A stretch of DNA of 64,000 bases from Xiphophorus maculatus (taxonomy: Eukaryota; Chordata; Actinopteri; Cyprinodontiformes; Poeciliidae). Below, in pieces: positions 1 through 48,100 of this stretch. A model generated the notes under the pieces. The model was not told where the DNA came from, did no database searches, and saw nothing but the letters and a program-made list of their open reading frames with translations. How positions within the stretch are numbered: position 1 is the stretch's first letter; every line of letters starts with the position of its first letter. The DNA lies in the NCBI RefSeq assembly GCF_002775205.1, contig NC_036462.1, positions 30,607,084 through 30,671,083 on the forward strand, given 5' to 3'. Made by a program: the position numbers and the translations under genes.

Positions 1-1108
<1,108 letters not shown>

Positions 1109-4479: not shown

Positions 4480-5928
4480 CACATGTTTGTTCTTCCAATT
4501 AATAACTGACAGATTAATCATATTAATGCAAAACTTTTCACATTATAACTATGAACTTCAGTATGCTCTATTTTAGTGCATAATTTAGCATAATGTTTTA
4601 CATCTTTTGGAAATAAAAATGATTTCCGATTGTTTTCAGCTCCCTCACTGCAAAAACACTAAACCTCACCAAGTAGTTTTGGTCCAGTTTATTGTGCAAA
4701 CATCTTAGTACACTTAGGATAAGATACAACTAACTTATGAGTAACTTTTCAGGAAGATATAGGAGCTTGTTTTACGTCAGTGATTCCTTAATATTGATGG
4801 AAAAAAATACTAGATTATTTCACTTATAACTGGGGAAGAATGTTTTGTTTTAAGTATCATATTCTGTGAATGGAACTAATAATTCTTCAGCAATTTTAAG
4901 GAATTATTTACTTAAACAAGCTTCTATATCTGCTGAAAAGTTTAGTCAGTTTTGTCTTATTTTAAGTGTACTAAAATATTTTCACTAGAAACTGGACAAA
5001 AGAAAAAAAAAACTTGGTAAAGTGTTGTCTTCAAAATTCAACTTTACTGATCCCAAAGGGAAATTAAATGTTGTTGTGAGTCATATAGATTTGGTTAATG
5101 ATAACATTACCCAAACCACGAATTTCAGTAATTACATTCAAACTAATCAAACTCAATTTCTCAGAAAATAATCCTAAATAATAACTAATTAAAATGGATT
5201 TTAAACACAGAAATAGTCTAATTATGGTAAGGCTGAACAATATTACAATATCATGAAATAAGTGTCTTATATCTGTATCAATAATGTTTTTGTTAGTTTT
5301 TCTGTTTTCAATATTTGGAATACATTCTTGTTTAATCCATAGTTTTCACATCACAATGCTTTTTAATTTCTTTTTTTTATTCTAAGCAATTATGAGGAAT
5401 GGAGGTGAAACCAGAAACTGCTGCTGCGCAAGTGACTCAACAGGCTGTTGCTAGGTAACCAAAGAGCGAGAACATTATTTGATTCCACCAACCTTGCTTA
5501 GCTAGAGAGAGGTTGAGTTGGCGTCAGCTGGGTCAACAGGCCCGTTTCCCCTTTTTCTGTTTTCGGACACAATGTTTCCTTTTGACCTGTGGTCCTCGCA
5601 CCCTGCTGTGCCAGTCCATTGTCTCCCAAGTGTGGATTTCAGCCTTGGTGACATATTACCAGCCGAACTGTCTCCAATAGCCATCAGCTAAGCCGAGCAA
5701 CGTTCAGCCGTAAAGTTTGTTTTTATTCAAACTTCAGCAGTTTTCTAGTTGTTCTGCTTGAGGCAGTGACATCAACGTGTGACATCACGCAAATTGATGT
5801 AACAAAGAGCGATGCACACTTTGTGGAGCTAGAGGGCATCACAGAGCTGCACGCTTGAATTCTACGGTCATAACCATTGAAGAAGAGAGACAGAGAGCAC
5901 GTAGTAGTATCCTAACAAGAGATTGAAA
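4480..5928. other. Duplicated spacer and 5' flank of the coiled-coil gene (copy A)
   Basis: AT-rich sequence shared with 28178-29627. At 5040-5070 a TTTACTGATCCCAAAGGGAAATT motif resembles fish retroelement tails. Sequence from about 5400 is richer in GC and probably contains the promoter and 5' leader of the downstream gene. Several TGACATCA-like sites lie about 125-165 bases before its ATG. No other gene is visible. Confidence 0.45.
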
Positions 5929-7059: not shown

Positions 7060-7400
7060 ATAAAGAAGTGTGATGAGGGCTCCAAGCTTCATGCTTGAGT
7101 ATCTGTGGCAGAAAGACTAGAGGACAACAGAACTACCGTGTCAGGGGAGCTTGACACTTGGGGACTTATGGCGGAAAAGCTTAACGCTTGAAAGATGTTG
7201 ACAGGAGAGCTTGAGGCCCGCAGGACTGCGGTGCCATGGGAACTTGAGGCCATCGAACACAGGTCTCCTTCGTCACCAGACAATTCCTTTGTCGCCAGGT
7301 CATCAGACCCTTATTTATCTTATGAACTCTAGTTTTGCTTTTATTTTAGTTAGGCGTCAGATGAGGAGCTTGGTCTGCTGACCCCAAGCTCCTCCCGGCC
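7060..7400. other. 3' flank of coiled-coil gene, copy A
   Basis: Non-coding sequence shared with 30744-31084. It contains repeated AAGCTT-centred words (CCAAGCTTCATGCTTGAG, AAAGCTTAACGCTTGAAAG, GGAGCTTGA) spaced by tens of bases, an irregular tandem structure. It leads directly into the 42-bp minisatellite. Confidence 0.45.
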
Positions 7401-7531
7401 TGCCTCCAGGGCTTCGTAGCGAGTCCTGTTGGTCTCCAGGCTGACCTCCAGGGCTTCGTAGCGAGTCCTGTTGGTCTCCAGGCTGACCTCCAGGGCTTCG
7501 TAGCGAGTCCTGTTGGTCTCCAGGCTGACCT
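7401..7531. repeat. 42-bp minisatellite, copy A (cut by assembly gap)
   Basis: About three units of a 42-bp GC-rich repeat (core words CCAGGGCTTCGTAGCGAGTC and CTGTTGGTCTCCAGGCTG) are visible before the run of N begins. Copy B has about eight units at 31085-31418. The unit length is a multiple of three, so several frames stay open through it. I treat these frames as a by-product. Confidence 0.9.
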
Positions 7532-8030
7532 NNNNNNNNNNNNNNNNNNNNNNNNNNNNNNNNNNNNNNNNNNNNNNNNNNNNNNNNNNNNNNNNNNNNN
7601 NNNNNNNNNNNNNNNNNNNNNNNNNNNNNNNNNNNNNNNNNNNNNNNNNNNNNNNNNNNNNNNNNNNNNNNNNNNNNNNNNNNNNNNNNNNNNNNNNNNN
7701 NNNNNNNNNNNNNNNNNNNNNNNNNNNNNNNNNNNNNNNNNNNNNNNNNNNNNNNNNNNNNNNNNNNNNNNNNNNNNNNNNNNNNNNNNNNNNNNNNNNN
7801 NNNNNNNNNNNNNNNNNNNNNNNNNNNNNNNNNNNNNNNNNNNNNNNNNNNNNNNNNNNNNNNNNNNNNNNNNNNNNNNNNNNNNNNNNNNNNNNNNNNN
7901 NNNNNNNNNNNNNNNNNNNNNNNNNNNNNNNNNNNNNNNNNNNNNNNNNNNNNNNNNNNNNNNNNNNNNNNNNNNNNNNNNNNNNNNNNNNNNNNNNNNN
8001 NNNNNNNNNNNNNNNNNNNNNNNNNNNNNN
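7532..8030. other. Assembly gap (N)
   Basis: 499 undetermined bases. By comparison with copy B the gap falls between the minisatellite (about 31210) and position 35743, about 4.5 kb apart there, so the true missing sequence could be much longer than 499 bases and could include another C1orf50 copy. Confidence 0.95.
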
Positions 8031-8489
8031 AATTGGAAGTATTTGGTTCTGGAGGCAAATATTTAGATCCAGTACATAAACTGTGGACTACAGTGAGAAA
8101 GTGACTGTAATCCAGAAAAAAAGAAAGCCTCGACAGAGGGCTGTTTAACAGCTTTTATTTGTGTTCAAGGTTTGTTGGGAATGTTACATTCATAATGGTT
8201 CTGGTCTCATTTTAACAACAACATAATAAAAGAAGATATTTTTTTTGGAAGATCCTTATTCTTCCATCTCCAGAGTGAATTCACAGTGATTGCAGAGTTT
8301 CTCCAGACAGATCAGGATCAAAGTTCTTGTAGTTTACGCAAAGGCTCAGTTGCAAAGGAGTGAATGATTAGATACATTTACATGATTTGGTTAGCTTGTT
8401 GAGGCACAACCAGAGTAGTCAGTATCATTACGTCTGCATCCAGCCACTGAGAAGTCTTCCGGAGATGCTGCCCTCTGCTGGAAGGGAGC

Positions 8490-11400
8490 TTAATACTCGA
8501 TGGTCACTGCTTTTGTCTTCAGGTATTCATTCAGGGCCTCTTGACCTGTTGACAGAGACGCAGACAGCAACACACTCTTCAGTCATTATTTTGACTACTT
8601 CCCTTTCACACCCACTTAACCATTCCTACTCTTTCACTGCATATCAGTTCGTGTCGGCTCAAGTTTTATTACATCCGAACCCAGTTTGAGTTCTGAGTGA
8701 CGCCGTAATCCCTCACCCAGGTCTTTGCCAAATCCGGACTGCTTAAAGCCTCCAAAGGGCGTGGCCACATCTGTTTTGTTGTAGGTGTTGATGAAGACAG
8801 TGCCGGCGTTGAGCCTCTCGCTCACATACAGAGCTTTGCTGATGTCCCGGGTGAAAACTCCTGAAGCCAGTCCGTACTCCGTAGCATTGGCTCTCCTCAG
8901 GACGTCGTCCACCTCTCTGGAGGACGTTGGGAGGAAGCGCATCAAACCAAACCATTCACATGCACAACGCAGCTTTGGATTTCAGCTTACCCGGTCTTGA
9001 ACTTGGAAACGATCATGATGGGACCGAATGACTCTTCCTTAGCGATGTACATGTGGTCCTGCACATCAGTAAACACCGTGGGCTCAAAGAAAAAACCTGG
9101 AACCGCAGGAAAACAAAAGCGCAAATTTAAGAGCTGGATGAAGAGCAAACAGGACTCAGTCGCCATTCCCGCTCCTCCTGCTGCCTCACCGGGTCTCTGG
9201 ACCTGCTTTCCTCCGTAGACGAGGGTGGCTCCCTCCTTTATTCCCATCTGACAGAACTCCAAGAGTTTGTCCAGGTGGGCTTTGTGATTCTGAGGGCCGT
9301 GGTCTGTGGAGCGGTCAACGGATCGCCAATCTTCATCTTCTTAACCTCCTCTACCTGGAAAAAAAGATAAACAGGATCGTCTTTCAAAGCTCAAATCAGG
9401 ACTGTTCAAATGTAGCAAAGGCTCAGTAGCAAAGGAGTGAATGATTAGTAAACAAGTTTACATGACTGTGATTGTTTAGCTTGTTGAGGGCACAACCAGA
9501 GTATCAGTATTATTACTCTGGTCTCTGTGGATGTCTGCTGTGTGTCTCCATGCTGGCCAGTGATAGATAGTAAACCAGTCCGGGGTGAAACGTACCACTT
9601 TTGTCAAAACTGGTCATGGATGGTCTCCTCCACAAACAGCCGGCCAGCTGCGATGCAGTTCTCTCCTTTGTTGAAGAACACGGAGCTCATGCCCTGTAAC
9701 GCAAACAACAGCCGGGTGTTAGTGCTGCCAAACGTAAACACAAGCACCGACTGATGAACAGTCCTCCGAAGGGACCGACCAGGCGCACAGCCTTGTCCAT
9801 GTCACAGTCACCGAAGATGATGAGAGGGGATTTTCCTCCGAGCTCCAAGGAAACCTTCTTGACATTACTGACTGCACAGCTTGGGGTGAAGCAAGCGCAC
9901 ACACACGATGAGAGCAGTTATGTTTATTTCTGGGTTTTAAATTTCAGAGTGTTGTGTGAGGGCGGCTTCTCACCTCTTCATGATGTGCTTGCCGATTTCT
10001 GTAGAACCCGTGAAGCCCAGCTTTCGCACGTCAGGATGGTCAGACAAACGCGGCCCACCAGAGCGCCTAAAAGGAAGACGGAAGTTTCAGAAAGCGTCTC
10101 CGTCTTTCCTTTCGGGAATGGAACAAGTCTGAGATACGTGAGTGTACCTGAACCAGGCAGAATGTTAACCACCCCTTTGGGCAGTCCCGCTCTTGCTGCC
10201 AGTTCAGCAAACTTGAGCGCTGTAAGCGGAGTGGACCTGGAATCAAGAGGATGCGAAAGTCTGAAACACCTTCAGGGTTTCCCTCTCTCTTGGTCCGGAG
10301 TGTAAAACGTGGATCCTACCTGAGCTGGTTTGAGGACGACGGTGTTTCCTGCTGCCAGGCAGGCTGCGGTCTTCCACGCCAGCATCATCAGCGGATAGTT
10401 CCACGGAATCACAATGGCACACACTCTGACGAGAGCAAGGGGAGCTTATCTGGGCTGACTGACTGTAACCATCACACAGCACACAGACTGGAGATCTCCA
10501 GATGTACTGATGTCTCATTGAAGGCCATGTTTGCTGTGTGTCTCTCAGACTAGTTTATTTCTGCAATATTTTGACTGAATTTACTTGGTAGAAAGTGGCA
10601 TAGGTGACACTGCTTCGGTGGTGGCTATATTCCGGGTCTTACACGGTTTAATAACCAAAAACATAATCATTTTGAAAATAGTTATCTACAAACAGGTAAT
10701 ATAACAAACACATTGCCCAGAAAACAGGCAATGGCTTTCCAAAACAGCAGCAGAGGCAGCTGCCAGAAGCTGACAGTACTAAGCTGTGGCAGCTTCCGGT
10801 GCCACTGGACGAGCCATAATTAGCTGCCACTGCCACAATTTGAGCTCAGCAGTTCTACAAGAAGTTCCACTCTGAGACCTGGTTTCAAAAAGTGCTGGTG
10901 TCAGAGATTCTGGTCACCCGAAGGGTTGTAAACAAATGGCTGGACGGGAATTGATATGTTACGGTTTCACTGATGGCTGACTCCATGTAAGCAGGTCTTA
11001 TCTTTTTAAAAATGTTGATGGTATAAAGTGTATAATCGTCACAGCTGTGAACATCCAGGTACCACAGCAAGCCAGAAACAGTTCTGGGGGGTTTGAACCT
11101 CTGAACATCTTTCATGCAACTTGAATAAGTTCAGCATCTTGAAGTTATTCTTAGTGTTTATATGATTGTAAAAGTAAGTGGTAAATAAGGCATTGTGTTA
11201 AGAAATGAAAAAATATTTGAAAAAAAAAAATCCTCACCCAATTGGCTCCTTCTTGGTGAAAGTCAGATTACGATTGGGTCTGGCCTGGTTGATGGGAATG
11301 GTGCTGCCCTGGAAGAAAGTTACATTATTTTTAAAAAGGGGAAATTAGAAGTTTTAGTTACAGATGTGCAAAGATTTTTGTATCTGAAGATGGGATTTGG

Positions 11401-13591
11401 CTGATTCTTATAAAGTCAGCTGTCTTACCTGGATCTTGTCACACCAGCCAGCAAAATAACGGAACGTCTGGATGGACATGCCCACATGAGTCTTGAGGGC
11501 CAAAGTGTAAACGGCTCCAGAGTCCATAGCTTCAATAGTAGCTAACTCATCCTGGTGTTCCTCCATCAGGTCCGCCAGTCTGTGGGAGGAGTTGGAGGAA
11601 AAAGCAGAGTCTAGAATGCCAGGAATTATGTTTGATACTGTAAATCAGTCAGCAAGCAGAGCAGTCTGACAATGTCTAAAGTCTGTCAGCTTCACCTGCA
11701 TACAATATGTCACCAGTGTTATGGATGAACGAGTTCAAATACATATGTTGATGACTAAAAGTCGCATATTTGACAACTTTGAAATGAATGATGCTGAATG
11801 ATGGTGGAGACTGGGAAGGTAACGCAGATCCTTATTTAACGGCGCTCAGTTTGGGAGTGAGCTCAACGTTTGCATCGTGTTTTTGGACAAACTTTGGACA
11901 CTTTCAGCCTCAACGTGGCTGTTCTGGGTTTTACCGCATGTCTTCCACCTGTCTCCATCCTGTTTCCTGCCCATTTAGTGTTCAATAAAGGCCACTATTG
12001 GCAAAAAAATCTATGTATTGTTATTTATTGAGGTCTTTGAATTTATTCTGATTTTTGAGTGAAGGATATCTGTGTTTTCATCTTGGACCTATGCACTCCT
12101 TCTACAGACAGGCTTAGCACGATAGATGGACGGAACTGGTTTATCTAACATCGTCCAACGGTCACAAAAAAAACATGCCTTATAAATATTACTTTGTCAT
12201 TATAAGGCATTGTTCTGAGTTATTCTTTACACTAAAGTTTAGAATTAAGTAGAAACCAAGCTACAAGCCAGATACATTAAATGCTAAATGTAAAATGTAG
12301 CATACCTTAGATACCAAGCATCATCCAGCACTACTTACTTGTAGATGAGTCTTCCTCTGTCCCTTGGGTTCATCTTGCCCCACTCCCCCGATTCGAACGC
12401 CTCCTTAGCAGCAGCGACTGCTTTGTCCACATCACTGATCTGGGCCAGAGACACTTCACAGATGGCCTGTAAGACACATCACTTGTCTAGATTTGCTCGT
12501 CTCCTGGTGGCGGCGCGTCGGGAGTAGACCCATTGAGTTAGTTCTGATTTTTAGACTTTTGGTCATATTTTTTGGTTGAGACGACTGGACTGTTGTCTCT
12601 TCCAGGTCCGGATGCTGTGCAGTTGGAGGAATGTTTACTCTTACTTTCAGACAGTTGCTACGATGTGTAGCCATGGTAACAAGGTATTGTTATTTTTGGT
12701 TACAAGTGGGAGCAGCTGATTAGTGTCTCAAAAACTGAACTAGTACCTGAACTACGACCCCAATATTGGGCATTTCTGCTGCCCATTATTGAGCTGTTAG
12801 CATGGCATGAAAGTCGTGGTTGCTCAGGAAGGGCAGTTGTGGCTACGGTGTAGCTGAATGCTATCAGTGTGTGAACATGTGGATGACTGCGTGCAGCGTA
12901 AAGAGCTTTGTGGTCCTCTGACTTAATTTTATATTTATATTTATACTCCGGAGTAACCTCATAACATTGGAACCTCAAAACATTGTTCTGAGCTGTATGC
13001 AACGAAATTTCGTTCTGTATACACCCTGTGCATGCAAAATGATAATAAAGTCAGTCTAAGTCTAAGTTAAGAGCTGTACAAGTACTGCTACTTGTCTTTG
13101 AAGATACTTGGATGATATGAGTTGAATTTCCCAAAGGGCAACATTTAATTACCAGTACAGGTAACACAACCAATGAAAGAAATCAGCCAGACCGGCTCTG
13201 CTCGGTTAGAATCTCTCTTTAAAGAGGAAGATGTCATGCTGTTCATCTCTTACCGTGCCATCAGTGGGGTTGATGGTCTTGTAGGTCTTTCCGCCATCTG
13301 CATCCACAAACTCTCCGTTGATAAACAGCTGATGGGGGATCTTTACCGTCATGTTGTTGATGTTCTTTTCCACCTGGGAAGGCAAACCGTTAATGACTAA
13401 TGCTGTCAGACATTGTTTCCTGGTGGGGGTACCGACCGCGTACATAGTCAACCACGAGCTCTTCCTCCCCGTCCTCCCCTCGTAGTTTCCTGACACACAT
13501 CTGGATGAAATCCTGGAAGGTGGTGTTCATGTAGACGTCCTCGTTCTGCAGCTGGCAGGTGCTGGCGCGAAGCTTCACTTCCTCAACAAGC
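8490..13591 (-). pseudogene. aldh1l1: aldh1l1 partial duplicate (exons 9-22), copy A
   Basis: Fourteen exons equivalent to coding exons 9-22 of the intact gene. From 3' to 5' they are 8490-8545, 8717-8916, 8991-9096, 9190-9354, 9596-9693, 9780-9879, 9974-10066, 10148-10236, 10320-10425, 11238-11308, 11429-11579, 12339-12466, 13254-13373 and 13444-13591. They encode the end of the carrier-domain region and the whole aldehyde dehydrogenase domain, without the formyltransferase domain. Four exons differ from the intact gene by one base in length: one base too long near 10230, and one base short near 10051, 9606 and 9316. Each breaks the frame. Introns also match copy B closely. Homology runs from 8031, just after the gap, to 13864 in intron 8. 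A 3'-UTR AATAAA (minus strand) lies at 8154-8159. It is probably non-functional, or an assembly duplicate with base errors. Confidence 0.9.
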
Positions 13592-13863
13592 CTGGAGGTT
13601 AAGAGAGAGACTTGTATAAAAATATATATATAAAGCTTCCTTTAAAGAATTAATGTTAACAAAGACTTCTAGAATGTTAACTAGAAGGTTTTTTATTATT
13701 ATTATTATTTTAGGATTTGGCCAATAACAATAGGATATCCATATCAAAGCTTCTTCAATGAAAGAAAAAGATGCTAGTAGATTTTTGTATTTTACAATTA
13801 ACATACTGTTGTGACGCTCAAGCTTCATTCGTTCAATTTTGCAAATGACAATGAAAGAGTTAA

Positions 13864-13865
13864 TC
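13864..13865. other. Duplication breakpoint of copy A
   Basis: Sequence identity with copy B (41646, aldh1l1 intron 8) ends here after GAAAGAGTTAAT. The following sequence is unrelated to aldh1l1 and leads to serinc3-like exons. Confidence 0.8.
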
Positions 13866-14829
13866 TTCCTATTAAGGGTAGAAAGCTGTACTTGTCCAGA
13901 TTGGGGAAAATCAGCTTAACTGTGAAATAAAAAGCATATTGTGTCCTGAGTAAGTCTGGATGAAATCTGACTTCCTGGTTTGTCAATGTAGGAAGTTTAG
14001 TTTTGTAAACTTCACTCAGTACAATTTATGAAACTGGGCGGACTGGACAGATCGCCTAAAAACTTTGTGACAAATAATAAGGTGAAGGAAATCTAAATCG
14101 AAGTAAAACAAACAAAACATTTGCTATCCAGAAATGATTCATTTTATCCCTTGAAATGTGAAATAAAGAACAGTCTAGAAAATCAAACATCTGTCCAGAC
14201 TCACTTCTCATTTTCCATACTTACATGAAGATTTTGATTGGCCTGTTTTGGACTCAATGACTGTAAACATAAAAACATTAGACACAGAGGTTATAGAAAC
14301 TGATGAAGTTATATATATTATATAGCTGTTTTCTGTCCTGGCCTGTTTAGTTAGGTTAGGCCTGTTGAGGTTACTTTAGGTTGTTTTTTTTTTTAAGGAA
14401 AACATGAAAATATCTCACCTCTGCAGCAAACAAATTGCTATTAAGAATGTGTATCAATCAATGTTGTTGCTTTTAAACTGTTTCGTAGTTTGTTTTAAAC
14501 TTTTGCTTTGGTGTGACCAGGTTGTCGTGTGTTGCATATTTCTGCCCAGGTCCCTTTTGAAAATGAGATCCAGCTCTCAATGGGTTAAATAGAGGAAATA
14601 AAAAAATAATAATTCCAGTTTCACTGTTATCATAATTTATTGTGTCCACGCACCTTAAGCACCTTATTTGGCCGTGTGGCAGTTTGACGCCAAACAACGC
14701 GAACAGTCTACGAGAAAACTGGAACATAATACGTCGTCGTGCCGTTATGTTACAAATAATCGTGGTCATGTGAAATATTTCGTATATATACGATATATAC
14801 CGATCGTCACCGATATCTCTTGTCCGCAG
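13866..14829. other. Non-coding segment between copy A and the serinc3-like exons
   Basis: AT-rich sequence with no recognised exon on either strand. If the serinc3-like gene is real, this should be its last-but-two intron, but no earlier serinc exon appears before the duplication breakpoint. Confidence 0.5.
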
Positions 14830-18530: not shown

Positions 18531-19973
18531 TCACCCCACCATGGACCTCTTCCTCCCTCTCAGCCGTACCTCGTCAAGCTTTTTGATGACTGACGCCGAC
18601 ATCTTGGAAGTGGCAGCGTAGCTCTTTAGCAGCTTCTCAAACAGCATGTCTGTGTCGGGGTGAGTACTGAGAAAAGCCTTCTCCAGGACAAACAGATCCA
18701 CGCCCTTGTCCTCGGGCAAAGCCGAAATGTAACTCAGGCCGAAGTCGATGAAGACGAGCTCCGGTTCCGTGGCCTCTGGCCGGTGCCTCAGCAGCATGTT
18801 GGAGGTGGTCAGGTCGCCGTGGATGACGTTCTCGTCGTGCATTTTGGCTAAGATCCGACCGACTCTCTCGGCTAGCTCGTGCAGACCTCGGTCTGCGCAG
18901 GAGTCGCGCCGCTGAACGGAGTTGATGTGGTCACGCAGAGTCGAGGAGCCAACGATTTCCTCCAAGAAGATGCAGTGGTACTTGTAGTCCACGAAGTAGA
19001 CAGCTGGAGCCGGAATACCTGATGAGGAAAAATAAAACATGGTCAAGTACATTACATCAGTCTGTAAAAAAAAAAAAAAAAAGAGTTTTGTTTGTGTTTT
19101 GTTTTTTGTAAAACTATTTAAAAAAAAAAATTAATTCAATCTGAATATAGAACTCAAAATATTGGGACAAAATTGGGCAAACAAAAACTGACAGTGAATT
19201 TTCTTAAGAAAAGTTTATTTATGAAAGACAGCAACCTAAGAGGTTTATGTGTTGCTATATTTCACACATGTTTAAGTTTAATAAGGTGAGAGAAGAAATT
19301 AAATTCTGTTTTTTTTAATTGAGCATATAAAACATAGCCTTTCATGTTATGAAAAGACGGTCGGCCATCTTGATGCAATAGAAAACTCGGGTTTATAGGA
19401 GAATGGCCGCTTATCAATTAATCGTTAGTCAATTGATAAGATCAATCAACTGCAGATTAACTACATGGATGTTTACTTGGAAGTTTTGTTGTTGTTGTTG
19501 TTTGTCTACTTGTTTCGACTAACTGTAACGCTATTTATTTATCTATTTGGGCAGAGACCACGTACAACATTTCATCAACCTTTTAAAAGAAGAGATGCCT
19601 GATACCAGGCTATAGGGAAAACACTAAAATATGATTTAACAGATCATGGTTTAAAGCCAGTCTACACACACACACACACACACACACAAATGTGTGTGAT
19701 CAGTTACGTACATACTTGATAAGTCATTCAGATCTCACTAAAATCAAGCACACCAAACTACAGACCAATTCATGAAATAATTGATTTGCCTTCATCAATA
19801 ATGAATACAAATCTGCTTATTTATCAGACATATTTTTGCCAAATTACTAGAACTTTGTTGATGGTCCTTAAGGGAAATACTGCGTTACGGAGGCACTTAA
19901 ACACATGATATGAAAACATCGCTGCATGTTCTTTTGTTGTTGTTGTTTTTTTGTTATATATATGGGCTGAAGT

Positions 19974-26523: not shown

Positions 26524-27641
26524 GAATTTGGAGTTGCTCTTTATTTCCCAAAGTTATGGGGGGAGGAAAGGAGAGAATCGATATTTCAGCTGCCAGAAAT
26601 AATCCGTTCCCCCTCCCTAACATGGGAACAAATTAATTTTCCAGAAAGTCTTTAACGGTGCTTATTCCTCTCTTCATCAACAACGAATCCTGTGAATTTG
26701 GTGACATTTTATCATTATTTGCCAAAGTTATGAGGGGGGAATTGTATATTTTAGCCATCTGAAATAATCCGTTCCCCCTCCCTAACATGGGAACAAATTA
26801 ATTTTCCAGAAAGTCTTTAACGGTGCTTATTCCTCTCTTCATCAACAACGAATCCTGTGAATTTGGTGACATTTTATCATTATTTGCCAAAGTTATGAGG
26901 GGGGAATTGTATATTTTAGCCATCTGAAATAATCCGTTTCCCCTCTATAACATGGGAACAAATGTTAAACAAGTCTTTAACTCTGTTTATTCCTCTCTTC
27001 ATCAACAATAAATTATGTAAGTTTGAAAACATTTGCTCATTATTTGCCAAAGTTAAAAGGGGGAACCACATATTTTAGCTGCCTGAAATAACCTGTTCCC
27101 CAGACATAACATGGGAGATAATTGTTTTTCTCACAATCTCCTTTAACTGTTCTTAGTCTCCTCTTCATCAGTAACAAATCCTGTGAATTTGGTAATATAT
27201 ACCCTTTATTTACCAAACTTACTTGGGGGGGAACCATATATTTTAGCCACTTGAAAAAATTTGTTCCCCCTCCATGACATGGGACCTTATTATTTTTTCA
27301 CAAACTCTTTAACTATGTCGATTCCTCTCTTCATCAACAACAAATCCTGTGGATTTGGTGACATTTGATTATTATTTTCCAAAGTTAAAGGAGGAGAACC
27401 AAATACTTTAGCCACCTGATATAATCCGTTCCCACTCTATAACATGGGAATAAATTAATTTACCAGCAACTCTTTAACTGTTGCTTTGGAAACATTTGCT
27501 CTTCATTTCACAAAGGTAAGAGGCTTTGGGGTTTAAACTATCTTTCCATAGCTACCTTATATTAAAGTCCTGTAAGGATAAATACCAAACATAGTTTTCA
27601 AAATGTCACTTATTAACCATTATACAACATACATAAACCAA
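26524..27641. repeat. Left inverted arm with ~163-bp satellite (copy B, about six units)
   Basis: Tandem units with markers ACATGGGA near 26625, 26788, 26952, 27110, 27275 and 27442. The first two units are nearly identical (same TTCCAGAAAGTCTTTAACGG run), showing a recent one-unit expansion relative to copy A. The outer end (GAATTTGGAG) and the inner end (ACATACATAAACCAA) both reappear in reverse complement at 31426-31774. The array and its inner flank therefore form one arm of a long inverted repeat around the wars1 and coiled-coil segment. Confidence 0.75.
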
Positions 27642-27765
27642 CACACCACAGCAAACTCAGGAACCTAAGGCAAACATGCAAAGTACTGATTTTACTGGTT
27701 TTAGTTTTTGCCTAATTGATGATATTGTTTGTTTTTTTGCCCCTGTTTTATTTATTTTTCTGCAG

Positions 27766-28177
27766 GCTGAGGTTGATGCTGCTGTCCAGCTGCTACTGAA
27801 GCTGAAAATGGGCTACAAACAGATGACTGGTCAGGACTACAAAGCAGGACGTCAGTGAACGATGCTGCGCCGAACAACAGAACGGCAGCAGATTTGGCCG
27901 GTGAGGACGACACGGTGGATCCATGGACCGTTTCAACCACCAACGCCAAGGGAGCCGATTATGACAAATTAATAAGTGAGAGTCCAGTTAGCTTTAAGTC
28001 TGAGGGGAGGGATAATCCACCGTGGCGGATTGATAAACAATGCTTTCTCTTATTTTATTTTATTTTGTATTTTTAGTGAGGTTTGGGAGCAGTAAAATCG
28101 ACCAGGAGCTGGTGGATAAAGAAGGTTTGTGGACAGAAGCCCCATCACTTCCTACGAAGAGGAGTTTTCTTCTCACA
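27766..28177 (+). pseudogene. wars1: Tryptophanyl-tRNA synthetase (wars1) fragment, copy B
   Basis: Same two exon remnants as at 4068-4479, here at 27766-27975 and 28077-28177. They cover the end of the WHEP domain, the linker with VDPWTVSTTNAKG, and the first catalytic-core residues up to FLRRGVFFSH. The two frame shifts are shared with copy A, so the breakage predates the duplication. At the first exon's donor the last exon base is A here but G in copy A. The remainder of the synthetase is not present. Confidence 0.85.
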
Positions 28178-29465
28178 CACATGTTTGTTCTTCCAATTAA
28201 TAACTGACAGATTAATCATATTAATGCAAAACTTTTCACATTATAACTATGAACTTCAGTGTGCTTTATTTTAGTGCATAATTTAGCATAATGTTTTACA
28301 TCTTTTGGAAATAAAAATGATTTCCGATTGTTTTCAGCTCCCTCACTGCAAAAACACTAAACCTCACCACGTAGTTTTGGTCCAGTTTATTGTGCAAACA
28401 TCTTAGTACATTTAGGATAAGACACAACTAACTTATGAGTAACTTTTCAGGAAGATATAGGAGCTTGTTTTACGTCAGTGATTCCTTAATATTGATGGAA
28501 AAAATACTAGATTATTTCACTTATAACTGGGGAAGAATGTTTTGTTTTAAGTATCATATTCTGTGAATGGAACTAATAATTCTTCAGCAATTTTAAGGAA
28601 TTATTTACTTAAACAAGCTTCTATATCTTGCTGAAAAGTTTAGTCATTTTTGTCTTATTTTAAGTGTACTAAAATATTTTCACTAGAAACTGGACAAAAA
28701 GAAAAAAAAAACTTGGTAAAGTGTTGTCTTCAAAATTCAACTTTACTGATCCCAAAGGGAAATTAAATGTTGTTGTGAGTCATATAGATTTGGTTTATGA
28801 TAACATTACCCAAACCACGAATTTCAGTAATTACATTCAAACTAATCAAACTCAATTTCTCAGAAAATAATCCTAAATAATAACTAATTAAAATGGATTT
28901 TAAACACAGAAATAGTCTAATTATGGTAAGGCTGAACAATATTACAATATCATGAAATAAGTGTCTTATATCTGTATCAATAATGTTTTTGTTAGTTTTT
29001 CTGTTTTCAATATTTGGAATACATTCTTGTTTAATCCATAGTTTTCACATCACAATGCTTTTTAATTTCTTTTTTTTATTTCTAAGCAATTATGAGGAAT
29101 GGAGGTGAAACCAGAAACTGCTGCTGCGCAAGTGACTCAACAGGCTGTTGCTAGGTAACCAAAGAGCGAGAACATTATTTGATTCCACCAACCTTGCTTA
29201 GCTAGAGAGAGGTTGAGTTGGCGTCAGCTGGGTCAACAGGCCCGTTTCCCCTTTTTCTGTTTTCGGACACAATGTTTCCTTTTGACCTGTGGTCCTCGCA
29301 CCCTGCTGTGCCAGTCCATTGGCTCCCCAGTGTGGATTTCAGCCTTGGTGACATATTACCAGCTGAACTGTCTCCAATAGCCATCAGCTAAGCCGAGCAG
29401 CGTTCAGCCGTAAAGTTTGTTTTTATTCAAACTTCAGCAGTTTTCTAGTTGTTCTGCTGAGGCAG
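28178..29465. other. Duplicated spacer upstream of coiled-coil gene, copy B
   Basis: AT-rich sequence equivalent to copy A 4480-5764, with the same TTTACTGATCCCAAAGGG motif near 28740. Sequence from about 29100 is less AT-rich and may hold promoter elements. No second gene is visible. Confidence 0.45.
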
Positions 29466-29503
29466 TGACATCAATGTGTGACATCACGCAAATTGATGTC
29501 ACA
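29466..29503. promoter_or_regulatory. Cluster of TGACATCA (CRE/AP-1-like) sites
   Basis: Three TGACATCA sites (two forward, one inverted) lie within 38 bases, about 125-160 bases before the coiled-coil ATG. The last two form a perfect inverted repeat, TGTGACATCA, 7 bases, TGATGTCACA (29477-29503). Copy A has one changed base in the third site. TGACATCA is one base from the consensus CRE (TGACGTCA) bound by CREB/ATF-type bZIP proteins. The regulatory role is inferred from position only. Confidence 0.4.
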
Positions 29504-29627
29504 AAGAGCGATGCACACTTTGTGGAGCTAGAGGGCATCACAGAGCTGCACGCTTGAATTCTACGGTCATAACCATTGAAGAAGAGAGACAGAGAGCACG
29601 TAGTAGTATCCTAACAAGAGATTGAAA

Positions 29628-30743
29628 ATGAAAGCTTTTCGAGATAAAGAGGCAAATTCTAACACACAAGTAAAGAAAATCATTGAGAAGTTTTTGGATT
29701 TGTCCAGAGAAACGGGATCAACAATGAGTCGCAGCAGTAAGACATCATCTTGTGATTCTGGAAAGGAAAAAGTACAACAGACATTAGCTGAAGAGACACA
29801 GAAGCCCCATGGAATATTGAACGAAGTTGGCATGATGTCCATTGTAAAACAGTCTCTGATTGAAAGAAATGAGGAGCTGAAGATGCAAGTTCTGAACATA
29901 GAACAAGCTGCATTTGAAAAAGACAAGCTTCAAGACAAAGACGAGGAATTAAACAAACTGTTGCACGTAAACAAAACGTTAAAGGAGAACAACACCACCC
30001 TGGAGCAGAATACCACTGCCTTGGAGAACAAAAGCACCTCCCTGAAGCAGAGAATCAATGCCCTGGAGAAGGAAAAAAACACCCTGCAGCAGGAAAAAAC
30101 TGCCCTAGGGCAGAAAAGCACCGCTCTTCAGCAGAGAAACAATGTCCTGGAGAAAGAAAAAAATACGCTGGAGCAGGAAAAAACTGCCCTAGGGCAGAAA
30201 AGCACCGCTCTGGAACAGAGAATTAACACCCTGGAGAAAGAAAAAAGTACCCTGGAGAAGGAAAAAACTGCTCTAGGGAATAAAAACACGACTCTGGAAC
30301 ATATAAACCATGCCCTGGAAAGGGAAAGAAATACCCTGGAGATGGAAAACACCATTTTCGATGAGATAAACACCGTCTTGGAGCAGAAAAGAGCCTCCTT
30401 GGAGGAGAAAAGCAACTTCTTGGAACAGATAAACACCGCCCTGACGCTGAGAAGCACCTCTCTGGAGCAGAAATGTTCTATCTTGGAGAATATCAACACC
30501 GCCTTGGAGCAGGAAAACGAGATCCTGGAGCAGAAAAATACTGACTTAAAGAATATGAACATCGACCTGCAGCTTAAACTGGAGCAGCTGAACCAGAAAA
30601 CCAGCGAAAACATCAAATCAGTTTCAGATCAGCTACAGAAGCAGCCTATATTCAGACGTGTCATCACTGGCGTTTCCAATACCTTCCTGAAAATGTACCA
30701 AACAGGTACTATCAGGTACTGGGTTGACACTTGGTACTGCTAA
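29628..30743 (+). CDS. Intronless heptad-repeat coiled-coil protein, copy B
   Basis: Open frame of 371 codons from ATG 29628. An in-frame TAG at 29604-29606 excludes an unspliced upstream extension. The architecture is that of copy A: charged head, about 30 consecutive Leu-spaced heptads, and a C-terminal tail ending YWVDTWYC. By eye it differs from copy A by six amino acid replacements (for example G/E and H/L near residue 100), three silent changes and a 15-base indel before KTSENIKSV. The frame is intact in both copies. An AATAAA signal (30743-30748) overlaps the stop. Its heptads may be a protein-level expansion of a 21-base unit. Function unknown; it could be a genuine lineage-specific gene or a passenger ORF of the duplicated element. 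Confidence 0.72.
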   Translation: MKAFRDKEANSNTQVKKIIEKFLDLSRETGSTMSRSSKTSSCDSGKEKVQQTLAEETQKPHGILNEVGMMSIVKQSLIERNEELKMQVLNIEQAAFEKDKLQDKDEELNKLLHVNKTLKENNTTLEQNTTALENKSTSLKQRINALEKEKNTLQQEKTALGQKSTALQQRNNVLEKEKNTLEQEKTALGQKSTALEQRINTLEKEKSTLEKEKTALGNKNTTLEHINHALERERNTLEMENTIFDEINTVLEQKRASLEEKSNFLEQINTALTLRSTSLEQKCSILENINTALEQENEILEQKNTDLKNMNIDLQLKLEQLNQKTSENIKSVSDQLQKQPIFRRVITGVSNTFLKMYQTGTIRYWVDTWYC

Positions 30744-31084
30744 ATAAAGAAGTGTGATGAGGGCTCCAAGCTTCATGCTTGAGTATCTGTGGCAGAAAGA
30801 CTAGAGGACAACAGAACTACCGTGTCAGGGGAGCTTGACACTTGGGGACTTATGGTGGAAAAGCTTAACGCTTGAAAGATGTTGACAGGAGAGCTTGAGG
30901 CCCGCAGGACTGCGGTGCCATGGGAACTTGAGGCCATCGAACACAGGTCTCCTTCGTCACCAGACAATTCCTTTGTCGCCAGGTCATCAGACCCTTATTT
31001 ATCTTATGAACTCTAGTTTTGCTTTTATTTTAGTTAGGCGTCAGATGAGGAGCTTGGTCTGCTGACCCCAAGCTCCTCCCGGCC

Positions 31085-31418
31085 TGCCTCCAGGGCTTCG
31101 TAGCGAGTCCTGTTGGTCTCCAGGCTGACCTCCAGGGCTTCGTAGCGAGTCCTGTTGGTCTCCAGGCTGACCTCCAGGGCTTCGTAGCGAGTCCTGTTGG
31201 TCTCCAGGCTGACCTCCAGGGCTTCGTATCAAGTTCTGTTGGTCTCCAGGCTGACCTCCAGGGCTTCGTACCGAGTCCTGTTGGTCTCCGGGCTGACCTC
31301 CAGGGCTTCGTACCGAGTCTTGTTGGTCTCCTGGCTGACCTCCAGGGCTTCGTAGCGAGTCCTGTTGGTCTCCAGGCTGACCTCCAGGGCTTCGTAGAGG
31401 GTCCCATCGGCCTCCAGG
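31085..31418. repeat. 42-bp minisatellite, copy B (about eight units)
   Basis: Units of 42 bases with core GGGCTTCGTAGCGAGTCCTG; middle units vary (GTATCAAGTTC, GTACCGAGTC). It begins about 340 bases after the coiled-coil stop. The length is in phase with codons, so a 141-codon minus frame spans it, but this has no start context or family match. Confidence 0.92.
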
Positions 31419-31425
31419 TTCGTAT

Positions 31426-31774
31426 TTGGTTTATGTATGTTGTATAATGGTTCATAAATTACATTTTGAAAACTACGTTTGATATTTATCCTTACAGGAC
31501 TTTAATATAAGGTAGCTATGGAAAGATAGTTTAAATCTCAAAGCCCCTTACCTTTGTGAAATGAAGAGCAAATGTTTCCAAAGCACAGTTAAAGAGTTGC
31601 TGGTAAATTAATTTATTCCCATGTTATAGAGTGGGAACGGATTATATCAGGTGGCTAAAGTATTTGGTTCTCCTCCTTTAACTTTGGAAAATAATTTCTG
31701 GCAGCTGAAATATCGATTCTCTCCTCTCCTTCCCCCATAACTTGGGGAAATAAAGAGCAACTGTTTCCAAATTC
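31426..31774. repeat. Right inverted arm (reverse complement of 26524-27641, internally shortened)
   Basis: Reads as the reverse complement of the left arm. It holds the inner flank (GGTTTATGTATGTTGTATAA, then CAAAGCCCCTTACCTTTGTG) and the terminal satellite portion (CTGAAATATCGATTCTCTCC and AAATAAAGAGCAACTG). Most satellite units are missing, leaving about one and a half. Together with the left arm it encloses the 3.8-kb wars1-coiled-coil-minisatellite segment. Confidence 0.75.
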
Positions 31775-32860
31775 TCAAAAAATATTATGTGTGATAGCAT
31801 GTAATATACTATAAATTTCCTTAATCCAGTAATCTGTCATATTTTACATTAGAACAGGATTTACCAGGAAGTCTACACTCTCATCTTTTCAGGAAGTCTT
31901 AATGTTTGTGCCCTGCTATCAGCAGCTTCCATCCTCTATCAGCAACGAACAATTAGAAATACACACTTCGTGTTGGAAAACTGTGTTTGGTGACTGACTT
32001 TTATTTGTCAGACTTAAGTGACAGAAGTTGGAAAAAGAGCGATTCTCTTGGCGTTTAAAATAACAACACAAAACAGCGTAAGAAGACCTCGTTTATTTAT
32101 TTATTTTACAATTTTGTTATAGCTTCTTTTTAAAACAACAGCTGCCGATTAAACTGAATGTTACAACCTTGACATGATTATATGAGTTGTTTTAGTTGTG
32201 TATGAGTTATATGAGTTGTCTTCCATTTCTCGGCCCGAGAAGGAGAAGGATCAGGCCTGGAAAGCTCTGAAGGAGAGAGAAAACATTCTCAAGCTATTAG
32301 ATGGAGAAAAAGAAGCAATGTTTGGTTTTTCTTCTTTCTTTAACCCACATCTCATCCTGTCCTTACAGACTCAGACAGGAGAAACTGCCCTGTAGTGTAA
32401 ACATTTATGTGACATAGTTTTAATAGTGTGTAAAATCAGCCATCTGACTCTCAGCCTTGAGTAACGTTTTACTCAAATGATCTGAAAATGATGGTCAGAT
32501 CATTTTCAGATCATTTTCAGATCATTTTCAGATCTGACCAGCACGGATCGTGCAGTGACGACACTGTGGACATAGAAATGAAGACGTAGATGTGCCTCTA
32601 ACCCTGAAAGCTTTACGTCAGTATCGCCCCCTTTGCGTCGGGTCCTGTTCGACGCAGCTAAACACCAGCTGACCAAATCCAGCTGCTTCCTGGAGCTTTA
32701 TTGTAAGAAAATAAAAATTTTATGATTGAAAATTTTGTATTGAAATTTTCTTAATTTCTATGGAAGCCCGTTTCCGTCACTCTGTTAAAAATAAATGATC
32801 TCATTATGATATAGTATCTCAAAATAATGAGTTACTATCTCATTATAATGAGACAGTGTT
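31775..32860. other. Intergenic region upstream of C1orf50 copy B
   Basis: No gene is established. A short frame at 32219-32310 reads RPEKEKDQAWKALKEREN and looks protein-like, but has no start, family match or clear splice sites. At 32486-32535 there are four tandem copies of ATCATTTTCAG preceded by an inverted ATGATCTGAAAATGAT. Confidence 0.4.
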
Positions 32861-32970: not shown

Positions 32971-34308
<1,338 letters not shown>

Positions 34309-42100: not shown

Positions 42101-45100
42101 GGATAAAAAAAATAAAATAAAATGTATTTTTTTCAAAAACGTCACTCAAGTAATTGGGTAAATGTAACTAGTTACTACCAAACTCTAGTGCTATGCTCCG
42201 AGCCACTTGCCCAAATAAATCTGAACAGGAATAAATGATTGTGTTTACTTGTAGAAATGTTATTTTAAAAGAGCAAAATATAATTGCTCCAAAAGTAGAG
42301 AGGTCGTAAACCACAGGCCTGCTGTAGTGAGACGGCTTGAAAGGTGAAAGTCAGAGCTGCGAGCAGCAGGGGGCGCTAGCGAGAACACAGGCAGCCTGGA
42401 TGGTGTGACTGTGCGGCAGCAGCATCCTCCGCGGCGGCTGCTTCAGGAAGCCTTTAGCCTTCGGCTCGTTTTTAAAGAGGAACATGGCCGCCGCTACTCT
42501 GCACTCGTTCAACGCCTTCCTCACGGAGAGGCTGACCGCTGCTGCCGTGGACATCTATGGGTTCGTTGAAAAGACGGTGGTGGAGTACCAGGAGGAGGTC
42601 TACCGAACCCAGCTGGAGAACCAGAGGCTGCAGCGGATGCTGGACCTGGTCTACAAACCGGACATAAGGCTCCACAGGGCAGGTAGGGCTCTCAGGTTGC
42701 TGCCCGCCACCCAGCGGTCCACTGAGCCGAACCCTCGCGGCTCACATCAACCTGTGGTTCGGGGCCTGTTCCAGCAGCTTCCTGCCTCCTGCTGCTGTTA
42801 GCCGGTCCGGGCTAACCGCTGCGGGTCCCGGGCATCATTCTGGAGAAGTCCCCCTGCAGGTTTGGCTGGATTAAAGGGCTGTTTCGCCCCGTTTACCCAG
42901 TCTGTCTGACTGGTCCAGTTTAAAGCGGATTATTTACAGTGTGTTTTTGTTTCATACGCAGTGGAGGATTTATAAACGCCTTCAGTTACTGAAAACTCTC
43001 AGAAATGCATTTAAGAAAATGGCTTGTTTCTAAATCAGTGTCGTGTCAAAACACGAGTTCATCACGACAGAGTATCAGTTATCTGAACATTATTTCAAAT
43101 GTTAAAACATCATGTATGTCGGTTCAAAAGTCAGAGAGCTGCAGCGTTTTAAAGCTCAGATGCTAGTCATTCATTTCTTTCAGTTTCCATTAAAAACTGT
43201 AGAAGAAAAACTACATTTCAGCAAGAAGGTCTCACACATTAGTATAGTGTTCAGCAGTTAGTGGTGAATATTTTAAAGTCAGACTTGTAACAATGTTTTC
43301 ATTCAGCTTTACGGTGCTATTGTGCACCGAGGCTTGTAGAAAATATTTTTAGGCATAAGATTCTCATGCATCATTATCAGCTTGGATTGACACTAGTACA
43401 GTCAAAACCAGAAGTTTACATACACCAAATAAAAAAAGAAACCCAGTAATGACAGAATATGTCAAATGCATGTAACGCTTTTCATGTGTACCATCAGTGA
43501 GAGACGTACTGGACAGGTTAACTGAGCCATCTGAGATAGACGGACACAAACCTGTGCATGTATTTCAAGGCCACAGCAGAAAACGCACTGCTTTCTGGTT
43601 CGACCCAATTGGAAAGTCCAAAGAAATCAGCCGAGATATCAAGAAGAGAAATATGGCTCTGCTGCAGTCTGGTTCATCATTGGGAACAATTCCCAGATAC
43701 TTGAAGGTTCATTCATCCCTTCAAACAATTTTACGCTAGGGGTGGGCGATATGGACTCAAAAGTTCTATCACAATACTTTATGGTACAATTGTGAAAACA
43801 GTAAAAGTTATAAGAATTATTTGTTACTTTTTTTTTTACATAACTGTATAGCTGTGACTTCATGACAACAATCATGGCCCACAAACACAAATCTCTCTGA
43901 GGCCACATACCCATTTATAATACTCTTCTTTAGGACACCAGTCACATAAACTAGTGTCTTTTATGCCACTAAACTGCAGACACTAAATGCATTTAATCAA
44001 TATTTTAAATTATTTTTGAACAGAGACAGTTCACTGAGAGTCTAGTAAGTCTAGTACAGTAAAAAATAATTTCAACAACCCAGACAGTTTTATTGGGTTT
44101 TAAGTATCGTTAACTAGAATTTCTTGTGACGACGATAAATCAATATTCTTGTCACAAGAAATGTACCCTGATAAATGATCAACGATACGATAAATGCTTA
44201 TTATGCGCAAGTATAGAGAGGCTGTGGGTGGAGCTGAAAAGGTATGATGAGTGAGGCGGCCCAGAAAACGGACTCTGTTACACCGGTTCTGTGAGGAATG
44301 GGCCAGAACTCCAAACTGTATGAGACTTCTACGTTGTGGAAGGAAAACCCGAAAGGTTTGACCCAAGTCATGCAGTTAAAAAGATGATAATGAATTCAAA
44401 GAAAGTTGCAAAAATTGCTTTGTGTAAGCCTAACTGATCTAAAACAACAGAGGTTTGGTCTGATTTAACTGCAGACAGTAAGGGGAAAAAAAGGTGCCTT
44501 CTTATCTGGAATGTAAACGACTGGTTTACCACCAGGTCGATCAGGAAGTTCAGCTGGTTTTCAGCGTGATGTTGTTCTAAAACCACTTAGTCTCAGCATG
44601 TGAACAATAGCGACACCTTGTGGACTCATACGGCAGTACAACGAATCTTGAGGAAAAGAAAGCTAAGCAAAGGTTGTGACTGCAGAATGAATTGTAGGCA
44701 ACAAATGTCCTCCCTCAAGATGTGGAGGCTTCAAACGGGGCATGAAGGCATTCAGCTGGATGATATCCATATCACACTTCCAGCTTTATCCATCATAATC
44801 ATTTGTGATTGAGGAGCTAGGCCTGCTGATCTGAATTTTCAGAATTTAAAGCTACTGATGGGGAGAAGTATTTAGTTCCACTTTTTGACGGTCCTCATTT
44901 GTGTTTGTCATTATAGATGCCAACCCTCCAGTAACTACGTCCACAGAAGAAGTTGCTCCTAAGCAGCAGGAGTTGAGCGTGGAGGAGCCGGGGGGTTCAG
45001 AGGTCAAAGAGGAACAGAACGAGGAGCAGCGGGAGGAGCTGTGGAGCAGCAGTATGAAGGAGGAGGCGTCCATGGAAGACAGCGACGACGGCGACGCCTT

Positions 45101-48100
45101 GACCAGAGAGCTGATCAAAACCGTTCAGCAGTTGGAAGACTGCAGAGCGGCGGAGGAGAGCACAGGCTCCCAGCAGACCTCTCCAGAAGATCCCAAACTG
45201 CCTGAGGAAAAGACCACCACCACGCTGTACCGCTGCCACATCTGCAACTACATCTTCACCAAAAAGATCGTGCTGACGTGGCACCTCAAGATGCACGAGA
45301 GCAAAGCCAAAGACGGCAAGGGCAACTTCGACTGTCACATCTGTGGCAAGCACATCCCCTGCCAGAGCAACCTGCAGAACCACATGAGGGTCCACACCGG
45401 GGAGCGGCCCTACAGCTGCCATTACTGCGGGAAGGGCTTCAAGCTGAAGGGCCACATGACCGAACACCTGAGGACTCACACCGGAGAGAAGCCCTTCAGC
45501 TGCCACATCTGTGACAAATCCTTCAACAGAGGCTCCACCCTGAGGAAACACGTGTTGGCGAAACATAAGGAGCAGCGGCCGTACCGCTGTGACTTTTGTT
45601 ATGAGTTATTCACTGAGAAGCTGCTGATGAAGAGACACATCAGGAAGGTCCATAGTGTCAAAGCCCAGTCTCCCAGTCAGAGCCAGGCCTAGCTCAGCCT
45701 TAACGGAGCTTCTGGAATGTTGGCGCTAGACCCCCTGAAATCTTTCACAATGTTACCTTGATGACTTTAACACTGACTCTGAACGTTTATGTTGAATGTT
45801 TTCTTAGCTTATATGTGGACTTGTAAACTATCTTATGTTATTAAACTAGTGGACGTAGAGTTTTACGGTTGACACCGGGCCTGGAGACAACACGAAGATT
45901 TTATCTGTTAAGGAATAAAGTTGGTCTCAGCTGCTATTCACTGTCAAACCTGTTTGAATAAAAAACTGTTTTATTGCCTTCTACTCTGGTAAGTCATTGT
46001 ACTGGAAACACATTCACACCTGATCGATGTCTGTAAACCAGGAGACCACCAGCGGTCCAGCTTTATTCCAGCATTAGTCATTTCTTGCAAAAACAGAGGT
46101 AAAATAAGGTCAGACTGCTGGCAAAGAGGCCTGAGGTCAGGCATGGAGAAGTTCTGTAAGCCAGGTGTGCATCTGGTACCAGAACTCAGCAGGAAGGAAG
46201 GACAGTCTGCAGGAAGTGACTTTTAGATAGTGGGAAACAGAATAATGTCTGTAAATACAAATATTTCCAAACCTTGATTTTCTTTTATCCAAACCCATTT
46301 TATACTTTCCTAGATTTTGAAGACTGTGTGATAACTCTGAGTTGGGGTCTCTCCAGATGAGAAGTGGTTGGTAAATAAACTCCCTGATGTAATTACCAGT
46401 TATTTGTACTGCATGTTGCCCGGCTGCTTACCTGCAGAAAGCCAAACTTTTAAAAATGCTGCAGTCGGAAAGCTACAAGCAGAATCAGAATGTCGGGTGT
46501 AGTCAGTGGGATACAAAGTGCTGTTTTTCTGTTTGAATTCAGGGAAATTAAATCGTCTTTTAGCATTTTCTCTTCTGCTGCCTCTTTCTCCAAACATTTC
46601 CATCTTAAAGCTGCAGAGAGCGCCTCCCTCTGGCCATTCAGACATGACAAGTGAAGAGGCAACGTCTCACAGTGGTGAGCTTTTACAGAGGAACAACACC
46701 TTGACATCTGTTACCTGGCTGTTCAAAACAATGACAGGCCAACTCTGTATGAAGCCTGTTCTGAGTCTTGTTTACACTTTAAATTCTGCAGCTGGCTAAT
46801 CTGGCTAAAGCTCCACTGACTTGTGAAGCTGGCGCCCCCTACAGGTCAGCTGACGCAGGGCTTTGACTACCTCCATTGGTGAGTCAGAGGCAGGTTGACC
46901 TTGACCAGAATACATCAGTTGCGACCTCTAACCTTTACAGGACCTGTACTCCTCCAGGACTCCAGCTCAAATTACAGCCTGTTGGACCTCCTGCCCTCAG
47001 AGACTACGGTCCATCTGGACCAGAACGTCCTGCCACAAGAAAAGTTTCTTTCGCTCTGCCATTAGACTGATAAACAATAGTTAATTGACTCTGGCATAAT
47101 ACAGGACACACATCCACCTGCTACTCTGCATGTGTATGCATATTGTATATATATCTTTATCCCCCTCACCGTCTTGCCGTCATTTCCGAACAGCACCAGA
47201 CCAGACTTGGTGACGATGCCGGGCTGGCTGGCTCCAGGAATGTCCAGAGGCTGGCCATTGGCCGCAGTGCCGTTGTCCACCAGAGTGGAGCCAAAGAAAG
47301 TCACTTTCTGTAGAGAGAGAGAGGTGGCTAAGTACTGCAGTGAAATAGTGGAAACTTGCTCCAGAAATGAACATCTCTGGTTCAAGATCTTTGCATTTTG
47401 AATGCATGAACATATCAGCTATTAACTTGACAAGATGTTTCCTGATGTGGAAAATGAATTAAAGTCTGTGTGGAATAAAGTATGTCCTGATGTGCCCAGG
47501 GTGAGAACAAACCCAGGGCCTGTGAGGCTCTTCTGTTACCTGTCCATCAAGCTCTGCCCAGGCCCCAGGCACTTTGTCATTTCCTCTGATCCAGTTGTGA
47601 ATGGCCTCAGCCGACTGGTTCCAGTCAATCTACCAACACAGAGAGCAGCTATCATCTGTATCTAAGGGGAGGATTGTTATCATTGAACAATTTTTTAATG
47701 TTCCTATAACGACAGTTTTCGCCAACGAACAAAGACTGTCCTTACAGGCTACGTTGACGCAGCAGGCAAATGCGGCTTTTTCACCGCCGTCTGAACGGCC
47801 CGATTATTCATTATTTATTATTCATTGATGTGTGACATGCATCATAATTCTGCACCAAAAAAAGCCAGACATGGTAAAGTTGGACGTAAACAATTACTGA
47901 AAATAATGATTATGAACGTATGAAAGAAGTCTGTCAGTGAAGTGTCAGTCCAAACAGTTCTCTACAGAAGTTGCAGTCAACGCTCCACAAAATGCCATTG
48001 CTGTTAGTCCTTCTTATCAGTTTCCTTTGTGTTATGACCATGTGACGATACTGTTGATTCCCATTACTGAATAAAGGTTAAAATTGATACACAGACTGCT

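Follow-up and report, generated by a model that had tools for sequence, protein, structure and literature searches.

The stretch analysed here (the window: 64,000 nucleotides of the Xiphophorus maculatus genome, C20:30607084–30671083) contains an intact, intronless gene for a coiled-coil protein, which lies, together with two wars1 exon remnants, a promoter region and a minisatellite, between long inverted arms that bear a 165-bp satellite. Searches within this one 704-Mb genome of 101 contigs related the unit to a dispersed family of elements, whose members are located below by contig and position (in Mb where shortened). The following features were recognised in the window, the open reading frame being abbreviated to ORF and the cAMP response element to CRE:

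26524–26603, no strand: outer part of the left arm, reverse complement of 31691–31774 (about 91–94% identity)
26581–27481, no strand: 165-bp satellite array within the left arm, about 5.5 units
27371–27641, no strand: inner part of the left arm, reverse complement of 31426–31695 (about 97% identity)
27766–27975, plus strand: wars1 WHEP exon remnant, with a Pfam WHEP-TRS match (3.7e-10) at 27766–27858
28077–28176, plus strand: next wars1 exon remnant, with a 5-bp deletion relative to copy L020
29148–29160, plus strand: GTTGCTAGGTAAC motif, which we take to be X-box-like, present in 5 of 12 aligned promoters
29421–29540, plus strand: promoter core conserved in divergent copies (12-row alignment), with a cluster of CRE-like TGACATCA motifs at 29465–29502
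29628–30743, plus strand: coiled-coil ORF, intact and intronless, 371 amino acids from the ATG at 29628
30746–31086, plus strand: conserved 3' flank of the cassette
31087–31418, no strand: 42-bp minisatellite, found downstream of the ORF in all eleven divergent loci fetched
31426–32194, no strand: right arm (inner part 31426–31695, outer part 31695–31774, extension 31775–32194)
32195–32540, no strand: segment that in copy L025 sits between the arm and the terminal block
2991–7531, plus strand: second, nearly identical copy of the unit, ending at a gap of Ns

The inverted arms reported by the initial annotation of this DNA are real, and the components it had placed between them, namely a broken wars1 piece with an intron, a flank with a CRE-like cluster, an intact intronless ORF and a minisatellite, were all recovered. 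The arm ends it had given, at 26524 and 31774, had to be abandoned, since the right arm of the window copy runs on at least to 32194. Most of the satellite has gone from this right arm, and only the left arm keeps its array. No true terminus could be located on either side of the window copy (26524–31774), and the terminal block of other family members was not found at 32195–32540; the annotation saw no target-site duplication, and none could be expected in a copy for which neither end was located.

In dispersed copies, the right arm passes the position equivalent to 31774, reaches that of 32194 and then continues for about 110 bp to a sharp terminus, which reads GGTCTTGTGCGAAATTCTGTTCCCC inward and CAGAATTTCGCACAAGACC outward; position 32194 was therefore rejected as the true end. 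Read inwards from the terminus, a full arm would consist of the terminal block, then segments of about 420 bp and about 80 bp, a 165-bp satellite array that varies in unit number, and a last segment of about 270 bp. Searching with the left arm gave at least 61 matches on C20, C100 and eleven other contigs (best 40 of 189 candidates), and the terminus gave at least 42 matches at no fewer than 40 places on 16 contigs (best 40 of 150 candidates). After duplicates with equal terminus and first six flank bases had been collapsed, 33 distinct end-plus-flank sequences in unrelated surroundings were read. Seven places, on C24, C17, C14, C5, C8, C4 and C3, have two termini in inverted orientation separated by 2.5–8.5 kb, not counting C3:0.37, and we read the interiors for C24, C4 and C3:0.17. 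A copy at C20:31.11 Mb also retains the right terminal block. These observations show a dispersed family with common sharp termini and long, repeat-bearing inverted arms. In the right arm at C5:7.50 Mb (L044/L030/L045), most of the 420-bp and terminal blocks is replaced by GTAGTATACTAC-type palindromic repeats, and the last 21 bp of the terminus still match at 95%.

In this genome, then, the unit is not confined to one locus, nor do other copies have ends unrelated to the arms, either of which would have spoken against a mobile element. The local amplicon that the annotation had offered as an alternative does apply to the C20 copies, but related copies with the same arms occur on many contigs. 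Within the window, parts of 1–13868 match parts of 20985–41650, mostly at 98–99% and in one block at 91%, and the local rise in copy number on C20 is best explained by recent segmental duplication. A run of 499 Ns at 7532–8030 interrupts the minisatellite of the second unit, so that the right arm of this unit cannot be seen.

The coiled-coil gene is likewise no one-off cargo, as it recurs across a large element family. Searching with its protein matched at least 148 stretches (110 of 997 candidates scored), and the cassette of CRE-like promoter, intronless ORF and 42-bp minisatellite was located at about 63 places on 15 contigs, a figure reached by manual reduction in which secondary pieces and weak matches (C6, C7:30.4, C10:0.6, C11:8.3, C12:2.6, C23:10.3 and C25) were dropped. 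Pfam and NCBIfam searches with the ORF protein returned generic, weak coiled-coil matches only. The best-matching stretch is free of stops at 41 of the 63 places, and fifteen places, the window's own among them, align with the protein over essentially its full length with no stop. Copies on C20, C8, C10 and C15 form local clusters; at C8:23789434–23833463, an array of at least six gene-bearing units was observed, with three of five spacings at about 6.3 kb.

We further compared eleven divergent loci, picked from the best matches and hence biased toward open frames, all of which have an open frame of 377–760 codons between stops. The upstream region and the 3' flank are each common to ten of the eleven; promoter sequence went undetected at L031, and the 3' flank at L035. 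A core of about 100 bp with a cluster of TGACATCA/TGATGTCA motifs is common to twelve aligned upstream regions, namely those of the window, one close copy and ten divergent loci; the CRE-like cluster is retained in eleven of these promoters and mostly lost in one. CRE-like motifs suggest control by CREB/ATF or in germ cells. In the window copy, a stretch of roughly 0.9 kb separates the wars1 remnants from the promoter region. In the C8, C15 and C19:3.14 copies, a single stop immediately precedes a start that corresponds to the ATG at 29724, and the conserved TM(S/N)QSSKAS that directly follows this stop is likely the true start. At C1:14.43–14.44 Mb (L033/L040/L052), the minisatellite has expanded and spans 5.8 kb, with no fewer than 108 detected units; one plus-strand frame is open there for 755 codons, but because the unit has few near-stop codons, we draw no conclusion on a coding role.

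To judge how the ORF has been maintained, we used the ratio of nonsynonymous to synonymous substitution rates (dN/dS). For 15 ORFs compared over about 75 codons at the N-terminus, the median dN/dS was 0.40 at a median dS of 0.54, and 99 of 101 pairs fell below 1 (4 of 105 dropped for low or undefined dS), values that come from non-independent pairs over a short segment in which the C11:24.63 row is partly out of register. The C-terminal segment gave a median of 0.57, with 72 of 74 pairs below 1 after 30 of 104 computed pairs were dropped on the same grounds. Against the open frames at all eleven divergent loci, a neutral simulation with substitutions only left 0 of 2000 copies open at 0.27 substitutions per site; at 0.1, the share was 1.4%. 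A tree built from the N-terminal protein sequences of the 15 ORFs had strong support on only 2 of 12 inner branches and was not used. As judged from these sequence comparisons, the ORF appears to be kept open by purifying selection across divergent element copies.

The wars1 exons, seen in some family members only, behave differently. In an alignment of seven copies, the first exon remnant is frameshifted by a 7-bp deletion that is absent in L020 and L009; the second, which by eye we take to be a WARS1 homologue, carries the 5-bp deletion listed above. By eye, the C19:3.14 copy keeps both exons in frame, and the C8 copy L009 keeps the first. Five of the aligned copies, four from C20 and one from C7, carry the two deletions, and all five have stop-free coiled-coil ORFs. 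The wars1 exons are an old passenger that is decaying in the C20 and C7 copies compared, and they serve as an internal control for the selection signature of the ORF. To our knowledge, a coding gene is not expected to survive in elements that lack a transposase of their own; here, the gene stays open in many dispersed copies, some of which also carry an accidental host fragment that is decaying, a contrast that makes the beneficiary of the gene, be it the transposon, the host or both, directly testable.

Clear arm sequence was found at 10 of the 15 gene loci or clusters whose flanks were examined (C20, C7, C19:25.5, C8, C19:3.14, C5, C1:14.44, C1:6.80, C10 and C17:14.98), a set that does not include the flanks of C15 and C11:24.63. 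Arms stand on both sides at C1:6.80 and C19:3.14, on the left at C1:14.44 and on the right at C5, C10 and C17:14.98, and the C8 array has a right terminus. At C1:6.80, which was read except for about 1.35 kb in its middle, the left arm is truncated inside the terminal block and adjoins the promoter; next come the cassette and the 3' part of another, and the right arm is complete, terminus included. These data bear on whether the coiled-coil genes are simply an ordinary host multigene family, with the arms being flanking repeats that were co-duplicated with some of them. Such a family would agree with the clustering on C20, C8, C10 and C15, with the selection on the ORF and with the three loci where no arms were found in the flank fetched (C11:20.67, C12:8.30 and C19:4.20). 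We nevertheless consider it quite improbable, since the cassette has arms beside it on several contigs, directly adjoining the promoter at C1:14.44 as well as C1:6.80, gene-free elements end precisely at the termini of these same arms, and the C5 and C19 copies have common post-minisatellite sequence as far as the inner arm.

The two longest terminus-bounded elements read, C4:220673–229157 (8.5 kb) and C3:166962–174419 (7.5 kb), have interiors in common at 82–95%. The C3 element contains exons in several short frames that match Integrase_H2C2 (2.1e-14) and rve (1.5e-12) in Pfam, and within the C4 element lies an rve piece matching at 82% over 44 residues, with two stops. For the C3 element, a GPY/F motif, GFLGPYTV, is apparent by eye in frame 2 of L056; the SH3_Tf2-1 match is weak (0.028). 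Across all 16 ORF pieces of at least 90 amino acids in these two elements, no other credible Pfam family was matched, including reverse transcriptase (long terminal repeats, LTRs, were not searched for) and the P-superfamily transposase of Galileo. No transposase was seen in the window member.

The arm of the C3 element matches the window's right arm at 80% over positions 4–768 of 769. Short foldback copies are 92–97% identical to the C3 interior and, because of this identity, look like deletion derivatives of the C3 element, and a 192-bp stretch is common to this element and the gene-bearing C19:3.14 at 90%. The terminal block of the C3 and C4 elements also occurs at gene-bearing C1:6.80, C1:14.44, C5:7.50 and C8, and less completely at C19:3.14 and C20:31.11. 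Gene-bearing members thus have the same termini as the integrase-bearing elements, and we infer that the integrase would act as their transposase.

A search with the rve exon (150 of 648 candidates scored) gave short frames at 49–100% identity at about ten places, one of them inside the C4 element, and most other matches, at 33–47%, had long frames like those of Gypsy polyproteins. Gypsy LTR retrotransposons have LTRs and a polyprotein that includes both reverse transcriptase and integrase; the integrase exons of the C3 element occupy short frames enclosed by the inverted arms. GIN2 arose by domestication of a GIN-type transposon and is known as a host gene in fish including platyfish, as outlined in PMC3424704, and some of the related integrase genes in this genome may therefore be host genes.

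At the observed junctions, no target-site duplication was found in any of the seven paired-end copies. The C24 pair has four-base flank matches, but these require shifted offsets, and two of the ends, C5 left and C14 right, have been altered. When the boundary is moved 2 bp inward, the C3 element is flanked by CCGG on both sides and the C4 element by CTGG and CCGG. Elements start with GGTCTTGTGCG, or with TCTTGTGCG at the shifted boundary, and TGTNR is seen at neither. At C17:17.39 Mb (L063, L064), both flanks start outward with the same seven bases, TGTTTTG, giving a palindromic junction, as might arise from a palindromic target or from conversion between the arms that extended into the flank. 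The C14 insertion sits within a palindromic repeat.

Both the absence of duplications and the lack of TGTNR ends would suit a second reading, in which arms and gene are mobile, the integrase pieces in C3 and C4 are passengers, and an unknown transposase that leaves no target duplication moves the family; the short-frame integrase places on C13, C1, C7, C12, C9 and C18, moreover, lie at none of the 40 scored termini. We regard this reading as doubtful, if worth taking seriously, because both longest terminus-bounded elements carry the same integrase lineage with no other transposase family among their longer ORF pieces, short foldback copies have their interior in common with the C3 element, and the shifted flanks include CCGG, a Ginger1 target.

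Compared with known systems, the family likely works like Galileo/Foldback in arm design and like Ginger/GIN in enzyme. Very long inverted arms with internal tandem repeats are present here, as in Galileo, Foldback and Tetris of Drosophila, as outlined in PMC3573991, PMC3688188 and PMC4079207. Galileo, however, belongs to the P-element superfamily, whereas the only transposase-like gene found here is a Gypsy/GIN-type integrase, and, unlike in these Drosophila elements, some members carry a selected coiled-coil gene. Like Ginger1 and GIN as summarised in PMC2836005, the C3 element, which has the window's arms, would be a DNA transposon with a Gypsy-like integrase (H2C2, rve and an apparent GPY) that is apparently split by introns. 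In the same account, Ginger1 has terminal inverted repeats (TIRs) of about 40–270 bp, TGTNR ends and 4-bp CCGG/CCGT duplications, whereas the present arms measure several hundred bp to more than 1 kb, the ends read GGTCTTG, and the observed junctions lack duplications. On TIR length and TGTNR ends, the family is not placed in Ginger1.

Pack-TIR and Pack-MULE elements capture gene fragments, and the window copy resembles them in holding a host exon–intron fragment within inverted arms, but this fragment travels as a passenger next to an intact, selected gene that is separate from it. Helitrons belong to the rolling-circle elements and lack long inverted arms. For Zisupton/KDZ and Helitron, titles and abstract openings gave no lead to these ends, and the genome was not searched for either family. 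The family links foldback architecture to a Gypsy/GIN-type integrase, a pairing that we did not find in titles and abstract openings of the literature, although it may still be published.

Taken together, we consider it probable that this is a foldback-type DNA transposon family with a gene cassette, moved in trans by a Gypsy/GIN-type integrase. The window would then hold end-truncated, tandemly duplicated copies that carry a self-contained coiled-coil gene cassette, its ORF presumably held by purifying selection, with wars1 exons that may have been captured in one branch and are now decaying. The integrase of larger elements with the same ends would bind the repeated arms and move the family in trans, so that gene-carrying members without an integrase would depend on integrase-bearing ones; the satellite units could be binding sites that expand and shrink, and the coiled-coil protein may help the element or the host. 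The initial annotation's idea of a DNA element with inverted arms, an intact cargo gene and captured host exons is retained in this form. A bolder version, in which an undescribed, superfamily-level lineage of integrase-driven foldback elements without target duplication comprises integrase carriers and coiled-coil carriers, and the coiled-coil protein is a second transposition or arm-binding factor selected through its own element, strikes us as unlikely.

Several observations weigh against the transposon family moved in trans, besides the missing target duplications, the three armless loci, the selection of divergent loci from best matches and the limits of the dN/dS comparison given above. 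The integrase gene of the C3 element is broken up into several frames and is possibly dead, and no intact integrase copy was seen among the elements read. Two further gene loci have mainly satellite units (C24:6.07, with a 59-bp arm fragment on the other side, and C17:17.05), and the outer left arm is absent in all seven C20 copies whose left side was fetched. The best-matching stretch has at least one stop at 22 of the 63 gene places (exactly one at 16), some copies are plainly dead, such as C20:30603622 with 15 stops, and the conserved C-terminus (RVI..SN..LKM....RYW) has been frameshifted away in three of the eleven divergent loci (L031, L034 and L035).

Within the transposon family moved in trans, it is quite possible, if somewhat short of even, that the protein is retained for the host, for example in germ cells under CRE control, with the element as its vehicle. 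The purifying selection on the ORF and the retention of the CRE-like cluster would fit this, and platyfish offers a precedent in texim, an SGNH hydrolase gene that, as outlined in PMC4021074, is likewise a multicopy fish gene spread by a transposon, although gene and vehicle, a Helitron, differ. Against it stand the widely varying ORF length and the fact that no single-copy, armless host gene was identified in this genome.

Elsewhere in the window, a TG dinucleotide run of 72 copies lies at 33592–33735, a minus-strand open frame at 18531–19052 resembles by eye an exon of a TP53RK/Bud32-type kinase, and an open frame at 44901–45692 contains C2H2 zinc-finger repeats by eye.

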